From NCBI GenBank assembly GCA_022775905.1, contig JALFJX010000023.1:1-48459 (forward strand): DNA of 48,459 bases, given 5' to 3'. The position numbers were made by a program, and so were the translations under genes. A model generated the notes under the pieces. That model worked only from the letters and a program-made list of their open reading frames with translations. It made no database searches and had not been told where the DNA came from. Source of the stretch: Methanobrevibacter sp. Lineage in GTDB: Archaea; Methanobacteriota; Methanobacteria; Methanobacteriales; Methanobacteriaceae. Of the stretch, positions 1 through 13,011 are shown one piece after another (the stretch's first letter is position 1; every line of letters begins with the position of its first letter).

Positions 1-189
1 ATGACTCAAAGTATCAAAGCAAGATTTGAAATCTCCTTCAAAGACATATAGTCTCTTTAAACCTCTTGTATGAGCATGTATTTTTGCAATAGCATCACCA
101 GTTCCACGAAGAGGTCTAAAACCAAAACTATTCGCTCCAAACTTAGCTTCCCACATTGGTTCTAATGCTAACTTACATATTTCTTGATA
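1..189 (-). pseudogene. Group II intron reverse transcriptase/maturase fragment
   Basis: The minus strand reads without a stop from about position 189 to the window edge. It gives the reverse-transcriptase core typical of LtrA-type intron-encoded proteins: LALEPMWEAKFGANSFGFRP, then a GTGDAI stretch, then FEGDFKSCFDTLSH, which contains the first catalytic aspartate motif. Only the middle of the RT domain is inside the window. Homology stops abruptly upstream at about the YQEICK residues, where the frame soon hits a TAG, so the N-terminal part of the protein is missing here. What follows outside the window cannot be seen. This is a broken mobile-element remnant at the edge of a decaying accessory region. 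Family assignment is firm; the exact breakpoint is approximate. Confidence 0.8.
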
Positions 190-623: not shown

Positions 624-996
624 AGACAAATAAATAAAATATGAGGCATAATACAATGGTTAATGAATCTTTTTATTTAGAAATAAGGAATTTAATAGCT
701 AGTAAAACTGAAGGCAATATTGGGATTTTAAAAGAGAACCTCACAAAGATAATAAAACATTAGTACATGATATTTTATGTCTAGCCAATGCGAAACATGA
801 TGGCAACCGGTTTTTAATCATTGGTGTTGATGACCCATCAGAAGATTGCAAAATCATTGGTTTAGATGAAAAAACTGCAAAAAGAAAAAAGAAGCTGATT
901 TAAATGATATATTGAATAATATAGAATTTAGTGGTGGAAATATCCCTATTGTTAATGTTCGCACATTGAATATAGATAATAAAGAAATTGATGTTA

Positions 997-1007
997 TAAT
1001 AATAAAA
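997..1007 (+). repeat. Left inverted repeat of the inverted segment
   Basis: TAATAATAAAA is the exact reverse complement of TTTTATTATTA at 1481-1491. With two mismatches the match extends to 15 bp (993-1007 against 1481-1495). These repeats bound the segment whose coding sense is flipped inside the AlbA_2-type pseudogene. Confidence 0.7.
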
Positions 1008-1480
1008 CTCAATACTTTCACCATTTTTGTCAGTGTAGCTATGTAATTTTGGCACTGGAATTAAAAGTCTGCCGCCATCACAATAAGCATACTCACATTG
1101 AAAAATGACATTAGAATTATATTTAAATAATATATTGCCGTACAGAAGAGAATTATCTAATAAAATGTGTTGAATGGTTCTACATAATCACTTTCATTAA
1201 ATTCTGTTAATTCAATTGAAAATTCGGGCACTGGTTTATACAAGGCAGTTTCTTTTGTTTCAAATTCATCCATCCAATTATCAATATCATTTAGGTAGAA
1301 TTCAAATCTCTCTTCAACATCTAAATTAAGACCAAAACGTTCTTTCCACATATATTCAATATCTGCAAAATTCGCATTCTTGTCTTTAGGAGTATTTCTA
1401 TCATCTGTTCTTGTATAAATGTGATAAGCTTTTACAATACCATAATTCTTTTCTAAATAGTAAGGTTTATTTTTAGTATT
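1008..1480 (-). other. Inverted 473-bp segment within the AlbA_2-type pseudogene
   Basis: Coding sense is on the minus strand here and on the plus strand on both sides. Flipping the segment joins VIII-K to NTKNKPYYLEK at the left end and NGESIEF to YYYNLDAIEGK at the right end, both in frame. It lies between an 11-bp perfect inverted repeat. One minus-strand piece stays open for 64 codons (1157-1351) and is the middle of the same protein, not a separate gene. Confidence 0.75.
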
Positions 1481-1491
1481 TTTTATTATTA
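1481..1491 (-). repeat. Right inverted repeat of the inverted segment
   Basis: TTTTATTATTA on the plus strand, the exact partner of 997-1007. It sits where the plus-strand coding homology resumes. Confidence 0.7.
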
Positions 1492-1774
1492 CAATTTAGA
1501 TGCAATTGAAGGTAAATTCGCAAAATTAATAAGTAAAAACAGTTTTGATTTTAGAGGTAGGATTCGTAGCTTCCCATTTATTGTAGTGAAAAATGAAACC
1601 ATGTTAAATAAATTTGTGGAATATTTAACAGATAATATAAATAAATCAGACATTCCTTCCAACACAATGTTCAATACAGGAGACCCTAATATACCTCTCC
1701 CGTGAATTTAGATAGTTTAGTGTATATTGAATCAATATTTGACGAATGAATATCAGATTATGAAAAGGTTTAAG

Positions 1775-1798: not shown

Positions 1799-1934
1799 TT
1801 AACACTATTGAAGATTTTCCCAATAAAATTCATTGATTGAAAACTATGCCTAGAGATTTTATCAATCCTTAACAATTAAACCATTCCCCTCTGCAAGATT
1901 TCCTTAGCAATCTAGCGAATGTCAATTTTAAAAG

Positions 1935-2275
1935 CCCATAAAATCAAAGTCAATTTCTGCTCCTAAGATAGATTATTATCCTATCTACAAGTGCAATATT
2001 AACATTAATTTTATCCATTCTATTTTTCAAAATACCCTCAGTATAACCATCAAACTTAACCACATACGAACATTAGTTATAGTTTTATTAATCACCGAAC
2101 AAAGAACATCTGGAAGATTAATGTCAATATTGATTCCATCAGTTCTAGACTGCCTTTAATTCTCTCCCCCAATAACTATGATTAGTGTTGTACTGTTCAC
2201 CCTATTGTTCAATAATCTAATTTTAATATAATCCATAAGTCCAGTATCATCATCTAAACATTTAATGTAAACATT
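1935..2275 (-). pseudogene. Unrecognised decayed gene remnant
   Basis: The minus strand carries protein-like stretches broken by a stop and a frame change. The order is KCLDDDTGLMDYIKIRLLNN, then a TAA, then INIDINLPDVLCSVINKTIT in the same frame, then KFDGYTEGILKNRMDKINVN and IALVDRIIIYL in another frame. The alternating hydrophobic and charged pattern and the continuity across the breaks suggest a former gene rather than chance. I do not recognise the family. The rest of 1750-2678 shows nothing I can name apart from hairpins and the promoter zone of the next gene. Confidence 0.4.
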
Positions 2276-2678: not shown

Positions 2679-4598
2679 ATGACTATTATTAAGCACATAA
2701 AAATAGAAAATTCGTTATATAAAATGAATAATGAAAGTTTTGAGGATAGATTAAATGATTTATCAAGAGTAAATATATTTGTTGGTGCAAACAATACTGG
2801 AAAAAGCAGATTTATGCGATCAATATTCTTTAATAATGGAATAACATTGAAATTTTTGCCAAATGATAAATTATTAAAAGAGTATTCAGAGAAATCTAAA
2901 GAATTCAAATCCTACGAAACTTCGATTATTAATCCATACTCAAATGAAAAACAAAAAGCTTATGATGATATAAAATCAGCATTGAAAGAAATTACCTATA
3001 TTGAAGAATCCATCACCCCCTTGCCTGAATTAGTAAGTGTATATAAAACTAGAGTAAATAAGGGTATTCCCGATTATGAGCGTCTTACGATAGCATATAT
3101 CAATCTTTTTGAAAAATTTTTCCCAAATCTAGAATTTAATGATCATTTATTTAAATATGATTTTTATAAAATCTATTTACCTTCATTAAGAGGATTAGTT
3201 CCCATAACTTTAAATGATGATAATCCTAATCATGAAATAAAAAAAGATTTTTATGCAGAACGAATTAAAAAAGATTATTTTTCAAATCATTCTGATATAT
3301 TAACAGATATTTCTGATTTTTTAACAGCAAACATGCAAAATATTGATTCAGACACTCCAATACCCTTAGAGGAATTTGTTGAAAATTATATTTTTCCTAA
3401 AAATTCAATTATAACTGGGCAAAGATTTTACCAATATGTGAGAAACTATTTATTGGGAGATTTAGAACAAAGAGAAAGAATTAGGGAATATGAGTTATAT
3501 TTATCTGAAACATTTTTTGACAACAAAAAAGTTGTTTTAATCCCAAAAGTTAATGATGATGTTTTAACTGTTAGAATTGATAATGAGGAGTATAAAATAT
3601 ATGAATTAGGTGAAGGCATCCAATCCATAATTTTAATAACATTACCTTTATTTTTATACTTAGAAAAATCAAAAGAAATAAATACAAATGTTCTAGTTTT
3701 TATCGAAGAACCTGAAGTGGGCCTCCATCCAAGATTGCAAAGGAAATTATTAGAAACATTATTAAGTCAAAGATTTGAAAATTATCAATTTTTCTTCACT
3801 ACACATTCAAATCATTTTATGGATAAGGCATTCGAAAAAAAAGACATATCCATTTATTCCTTTGATAAAACTTTGAAGATTGAAAATAATTCCATTGCTG
3901 AATTTACAATCGAAAATGTTGGATTTAACCATTTACCAACACTAAAAAAATTAGGTGCGCTTCCATCTTCTGTATTATCACATAATTGTACTATTTTAGT
4001 TGAAGGAAGTTATGATATTTCACATTATAATTTTTATCTTGATTTATATCAAGATAAATTATTAGAATCTGGTGATATTTCAGTAAAGTTCAGATATGGC
4101 ACACATTATTCTTTTTTAAGAGGAGGGGGTAAAGAAACAGCAAAAACTATTAGTGAATTTAATTCAATACAAAAGCAAAGAATTTTTACAATTTTAGATA
4201 AAGATGATAATAAAGATTATAAAAAGAATAAAATAGCTTTTGAAGATATGGGTTATAAAAACTATTGTATTTTAGAAGTAAGGGAGGTTGAAAATTTAAT
4301 TTCAAAAAAAGTTTTAATTAAAATATTGAAAAGTTTAAGAGAATTAAGAAAATTAAATATTAAAGAAGATTTTGAAGAAGAAGATTATCAGAAGTCTAAT
4401 TTTTATACTTTTATAACAGACATTATTATTCCCGATGAAAAACCTAATAATTTTTTTAATCCAGATACCTTTAAAAAAAAATTTGCATATAAAGAACAAG
4501 AATTTACAGAAAGTTTTGATGATCTTTCAGAACCCGCTAAAGTTCTTACTAAAAAAATATATACTTTCATTAAAGAAAATAATTCTTTGAATTTATAA
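2679..4598 (+). CDS. AAA ATPase fused to TOPRIM domain (OLD-like, probable anti-phage nuclease)
   Basis: A 639-residue protein with an SMC/ABC-like ATPase split by an insert, followed by a TOPRIM-type domain. Walker A is GANNTGKS (36-43), a signature-like GEGIQ lies near 311, Walker B is VLVFIEEPE (338-346), and the H-loop is TTHSNHF (374-380). The TOPRIM part has the acidic LVEGSYD (440-446), ILDKDDN (505-511) and EVREVENLI (533-541), the last resembling the metal-binding ExEN of OLD and DUF4435 proteins. Such ATPase-TOPRIM proteins include OLD nucleases, GajA of Gabija and fused PARIS-like proteins; all act against invading DNA or phage. No UvrD-like helicase gene (GajB) follows, so this looks like a single-gene system. 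The ATG at 2679 is preceded by GAGGG. Its neighbours are decayed accessory genes. Confidence 0.8.
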   Translation: MTIIKHIKIENSLYKMNNESFEDRLNDLSRVNIFVGANNTGKSRFMRSIFFNNGITLKFLPNDKLLKEYSEKSKEFKSYETSIINPYSNEKQKAYDDIKSALKEITYIEESITPLPELVSVYKTRVNKGIPDYERLTIAYINLFEKFFPNLEFNDHLFKYDFYKIYLPSLRGLVPITLNDDNPNHEIKKDFYAERIKKDYFSNHSDILTDISDFLTANMQNIDSDTPIPLEEFVENYIFPKNSIITGQRFYQYVRNYLLGDLEQRERIREYELYLSETFFDNKKVVLIPKVNDDVLTVRIDNEEYKIYELGEGIQSIILITLPLFLYLEKSKEINTNVLVFIEEPEVGLHPRLQRKLLETLLSQRFENYQFFFTTHSNHFMDKAFEKKDISIYSFDKTLKIENNSIAEFTIENVGFNHLPTLKKLGALPSSVLSHNCTILVEGSYDISHYNFYLDLYQDKLLESGDISVKFRYGTHYSFLRGGGKETAKTISEFNSIQKQRIFTILDKDDNKDYKKNKIAFEDMGYKNYCILEVREVENLISKKVLIKILKSLRELRKLNIKEDFEEEDYQKSNFYTFITDIIIPDEKPNNFFNPDTFKKKFAYKEQEFTESFDDLSEPAKVLTKKIYTFIKENNSLNL

Positions 4599-11689: not shown

Positions 11690-13011
11690 TTGGACGTGAT
11701 ATTTATTTACGATGTAATTGTTATTGGAACTGGTGCGGGAGGATCAACTGTAGCTAAAGATCTTGCATTAAATGGAAGAAAAGTTCTGATTTTAGAAAAA
11801 GGATGCAATCAAGATGATGGTAGTTATGTAAGTCATATGAAAAATAAAAAAATATATTTGGATAATCAATTGTCTGATGAGATAAGAAAAATTATGAATT
11901 TTTATCCTGGCCTTTGGATTTGACCAATATTGAGGAAGTGGGTGGAACAACAACCTCTTCAATAGGAAATGCATGTTTTTCATGTAGGGGATGTTACTCT
12001 AATTCCATTATGCAACAATTTGAAGATAAAAACTTAAACATCTTTGAAGAGCTTCTTGAAGCTAGTGGAGAGTTAAATGTCAAATATTTCCCAAAAAAAT
12101 TATGGGGACATTCAACTCAATTAATTGCAGACGCAGGTCAAGAGTTAGGTTATATTGTGGAGCCAATGCCAAAATTCATTAACTTTGAAAAATGTAAATT
12201 TTGCGGACAATGTGTGAATGGTTGTCTTTTTGATGCAAAATGGGATGGAACCTATTTTGTTAAGGAAGCTTTAGAGTATGGTGCTGAATTAATTCAAGAC
12301 ATTAATGTATTTGAAGTGTTACATGAAGAAGGTAATGTTGTAGGTGTTGCAAGAATCAATTCCAATAATGAAAAACAAGTTTTCAAAGCAAAAAAAGTTA
12401 TTGTTAGTGCAGGCGCATTAAATACTCCAATTATCCTAAAAAATTCAGGAATTAAAAATGTTGGACGTCAACTATTTTTTGACATGTTTACAACAATTAG
12501 TGGGTATCTAAAAGATGCAAATCTAAAAAATGAATTAATGATGGGTGTTAAAGCTGAATTTGGCCCATATTTCTTAACACCACATTATTCAATGCAATTG
12601 CTTCCATTGATGGAGAAAAAAGGAATTAAAGCTAAAGATTCTGATGTTATAGGATTAATGATTAAATTTGAAGATACTTGCATTGGAACAATTGATGAAA
12701 AAGGTAATATTTAGAAGACTTTGACAAAAGTCGATGTTGATATGATCAAGGAAGGTTATGATAAATCTATTAAAATATTATTGAAATTGGGTGTTAGTGA
12801 AGAGTCTATTGTTGCAACTTCTCTTAAAGGTGCGCATCCTGGTGGAACTGCTGCTGTTGGTGAAGTCCTTGATAATAACTTTGAAAGTGAAATTAAAGGA
12901 TTGTACGTTTGTGATGCAAGTGTAATTCCTGAAGCTCCTGGAAGGCCACCAATTTTAACAATTGTTGCAATAGCTAAAAAAGTAGCAAAAATAGTTAATC
13001 AAAATATTTAA
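11690..13011 (+). pseudogene. GMC-type FAD oxidoreductase with ferredoxin motif, frameshifted and amber-interrupted
   Basis: The pieces together encode a roughly 440-residue flavoprotein. It has the FAD-binding VIVIGTGAGGSTVAKDL near the start, EEVGGTTTSSIGNACFSC, a cysteine-rich CKFCGQCVNGCLFDAKWD, VIVSAGALNTP, and the C-terminal GMC signature AHPGGTAAVGE. Two lesions break it. One is a one-base frame change at about 11914-11923 (after FYPGL). The other is an in-frame TAG at 12712-12714, after which coding continues in the same frame. Likely starts are TTG at 11690 or GTG at 11696; an earlier TTG at 11678 lies inside the operator. The promoter and operator look intact, so decay may be recent, or the lesions may be base-calling errors. 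The thiS-like gene follows 10 bp later. Confidence 0.75.

Follow-up and report, generated by a model that had tools for sequence, protein, structure and literature searches.

The coding homology of a single AlbA_2/Schlafen-type protein changes strand twice within about 1.1 kb of the window (the whole stretch of DNA analyzed here, 48,459 nucleotides, which makes up contig C23 of a Methanobrevibacter sp. genome of 1.83 Mb in 37 contigs), raising the question of whether this gene carries an internal inversion and, if so, whether it is a switch or a dead gene. The first-pass annotation had described the homology as running plus, minus, plus, and a tblastn comparison of seven relatives with the window agrees, with matches on the plus strand at 718-897 and 870-1007, on the minus strand at 1501-1160 and ~1154-978, and again on the plus strand at 1481-1660. 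Taken together, the homology follows the order plus 718-1007, minus 1501-978, and plus 1481-1702. The features of the locus are listed in the table.

Coordinates of the features at and around the inverted gene (window positions)
Feature	Position	Strand	Remarks
Reverse-transcriptase fragment, group-II-intron-like	1-189	-	PF00078 match just below the cut-off; runs off the contig end
Pseudogene, AlbA_2/Schlafen-type (PADLOC PDC-S50, Pfam PF04326)	656-1749	+	Internal inversion and at least 4 frame changes
5' gene part, original orientation	718-1007	+	Two frames, with the change near 870-897; tblastn and HMM
Inverted repeat, left arm TAATAATAAAA	997-1007	+	Codes for the conserved ...VIIIK strand
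Inverted middle segment	1008-1480	-	473 bp; breakpoints inside the arms would make it as long as 495 bp; frame change near 1157-1160
Inverted repeat, right arm TTTTATTATTA	1481-1491	-	Codes for the conserved FYYY motif on the plus strand
3' gene part, original orientation	1481-1702	+	Homology to relatives
Remnant of a Methanobacteriales phage portal gene (5' part)	1879-2242	-	Stops and frame changes
Intact AAA ATPase	2679-4598	+	PADLOC AriA/OLD/PtuA-like matches; first intact gene

In silico inversion of the middle segment makes the homology collinear on the plus strand, with neither a gap nor a frame change at either joint, as had been claimed from the sequence at the outset. In a check close to the one proposed there, the seven relatives give collinear plus-strand tblastn matches that cross both joints, and the homologous protein of a congeneric genome (G005) aligns with residues 67-219 at 870-1328 and residues 220-329 at 1328-1660 of the re-inverted sequence. 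Scored with an HMM made solely from the sequences of relatives, the re-inverted joint 1 reaches 165.1 bits, compared to 29.5 and 127.5 bits for its halves in the present orientation, and joint 2 reaches 67.4 bits, compared to 36.1 and 24.9 bits. Both joints lie inside uninterrupted alignments, the first with VRTLNIDNKEIDVIIIK followed directly by NTKNKPYYLEK and the second with NGESIE followed directly by FYYYNLDAIEGKF. The 473-bp internal inversion is therefore confirmed as real.

The read-through protein, i.e., the product joined after re-inversion with X placed at the frame changes, matches the PADLOC PDC-S50 profile over 305 residues (E = 9.8e-87, profile positions 19-338 of 387) and the Pfam SLFN_AlbA_2 profile (PF04326, 1.4e-13); the similarity thus extends through the AlbA_2 domain and across the greater part of the PDC-S50 profile. 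PDC-S50 is a PADLOC candidate for single-gene phage defense, on which a literature search found nothing. The window gene resembles it in this profile match after re-inversion but, in contrast to it, is broken by the inversion and four frame changes, lacks an intact open reading frame, and is untranslatable as one protein. Complete, uninterrupted open reading frames of ∼370 to 385 amino acids are found in the homologues from the congeneric genome G005 (44% identity), from another genus of the same family (G125, 37% identity), from a Rhodobacteraceae metagenome-assembled genome, and from Enterococcus and E. coli plasmids. For the homologue on a Hymenobacter plasmid, translation was taken from the annotated start; the reading frame of the Francisella copy is open only in part.

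The family of the window protein is scattered and mobile. Within the archaeal family, matches are present in only 4 of the 139 genomes (the window's own included), and plasmid records hold 24 homologues, one of them adjoining a recombinase-family gene. That homologue, on the Enterococcus plasmid (L034, 735-3756), lies between the recombinase-family gene and a gene for a putative phage abortive infection protein, an arrangement that is in line with a mobile defense role of this PDC-S50 relative. Protein searches with the window protein gave no match in phage records or in IMG/VR, and exact IMG/VR searches for one joint in each orientation likewise gave none.

The repeat that the first-pass annotation had placed at the two ends of the flipped piece is exact: its 11-bp arms are reverse complements of each other, abut both breakpoints, and extend to 13 matches of 14 at 994-1007 and 1481-1494. 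It is the only exact inverted pair of at least 11 bp within the gene. The mere presence of such a repeat in an AT-rich 1.1-kb gene is unremarkable, since 48% of Markov-generated regions of this composition have some inverted repeat of at least 11 bp. Its position is another matter: only about 1.3e-6 of random point pairs in the window are abutted by an inverted repeat of this length, and the repeat therefore very probably mediated the flip as its substrate. The arms are at the same time ordinary conserved codons, ATA-ATA-ATA-AAA (IIIK) and TTT-TAT-TAT-TAT (FYYY) being reverse complements. In the three complete relatives tested, the residues at the corresponding sites are the same or similar, but no inverted pair of at least 9 bp is found between these sites. 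Because the arms are conserved codons whose pairing is absent in these relatives, the repeat is a codon accident rather than a maintained site.

Apart from the inversion, the gene has separate frame changes near 716, 890, 1157, and 1701, all four of which, as first reported, are visible as shifts of the matching frame against the relatives. These frame changes remain after re-inversion, so that neither orientation yields a working protein. No in-frame stop codons were seen in the matched stretches of the gene, which suggests that its decay is recent. The surroundings are those of a decayed mobile or defense region. The portal remnant on the right flank has 70% DNA identity to a Methanobacteriales phage and resembles Caudoviricetes sp. 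vir323, a phage with a Methanobacteriales host. Apart from the fragment at the contig end, the genome has a single RVT_1 match, which is on contig C25. The AAA ATPase is rare in the genus, where 67 genomes hold one near-full-length relative of 59% identity and otherwise a small number of fragmentary or weak matches, and the DNA similarity between the genome of that nearest relative (G037) and the window is confined to the ATPase gene. At 11914-12714 (plus strand), a GMC oxidoreductase domain is matched only from profile position 71, with a TTG start, and this gene is possibly truncated or broken. Synteny was sought through the AAA ATPase and the DUF1848 gene; the DNA of the locus has matches of only up to ∼60 bp in the 67 congeneric genomes, which therefore offer no orthologous locus for comparison.

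Invertons are phase-variable invertible elements (PMC11892184), and, like them, the window gene has a segment a few hundred bases long with an inverted repeat on either side. On the reading that the gene is, or once was, an intragenic inverton, a recombinase would flip the segment at the 11-bp repeats and turn a defense gene off or on. Such a reading would account for the short repeats exactly at both ends of the segment and for the restoration of both joints in the alternative orientation, and it gains some appeal from the defense-like character of the PDC-S50 family and from the recombinase-family gene next to the Enterococcus plasmid homologue. However, the four additional frame changes break the gene in either orientation, and the arms are ordinary codons, unpaired in relatives. 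Serine recombinases (PF00239) and the IS110/Piv-type family (PF01548) were not found in the genome, nor was any resolvase or IS110-type invertase, and its three tyrosine recombinases (PF00589) are encoded on contigs C27, C12, and C36, leaving C23 with no integrase and the segment with no cognate recombinase nearby. Genome-wide, there are only three copies of the 14-mer arm, a number that does not exceed that of its reversed control. Unlike the published invertons (PMC11892184), the window gene has been seen in one orientation, has no nearby recombinase, and is dead either way, and we consider an inverton, past or present, highly improbable. The narrower version, in which a recently lost intragenic inverton once switched a single-gene defense system in a methanogenic archaeon, is just as hard to credit. 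An assembly or library artefact, with a chimera formed at the short inverted repeat close to where the contig stops, would suit a locus 1 kb from the end of a contig that breaks in a reverse-transcriptase fragment, but it too is very unlikely, as a repeat of 11 to 14 bp is too short to mislead the usual assembly, genuine decay fits both the broken neighbors and the four further lesions, and a completeness of 99.98% in 37 contigs is atypical of single-cell amplified DNA, the source of such chimeras.

The evidence thus favors a dead gene, a pseudogene, over a switch. The first-pass annotation had offered both a one-time error during decay and a former switch and had already leaned towards decay, and this leaning is supported by the at least five breaks in the gene, the unconserved pairing of the arms, the lack of a nearby invertase, and the broken flanking genes. 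By far the most probable explanation is a recently decayed mobile or defense gene with a one-off inversion at a short repeat. A horizontally mobile, defense-type AlbA_2 gene of the PDC-S50 family would have lost its function in the methanogen. A single event, either recombination or a template switch in replication, at the chance 11-bp repeats in the VIIIK and FYYY codons would have inverted its middle 473 to 495 bp, whether in the course of the decay or as a contributing cause. The single occurrence of the flip, its origin without a programming enzyme, and its exact recombination route are inferred, the likeliest route being either a single recombination between the two arms or a template switch from one to the other during replication. 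Template-switch inversions in yeast coding genes (PMC8604942) likewise involve a segment bounded exactly by inverted repeats of ∼10 bp inside a coding gene. The spacers documented there are only a few bases long, whereas the window gene has an archaeal host and a spacer of 473 bp, which, with arms of 11 bp, is long for template switching.

Beyond annotation, the significance of the locus is small. Annotation pipelines would otherwise call several unrelated short fragments at 656-1749, where there is a clean, base-resolved inversion of several hundred bases between chance 11-bp repeats in an archaeal gene. Conserved codon runs such as those for IIIK and FYYY, which are near reverse complements, can seed such flips in AT-rich genomes.
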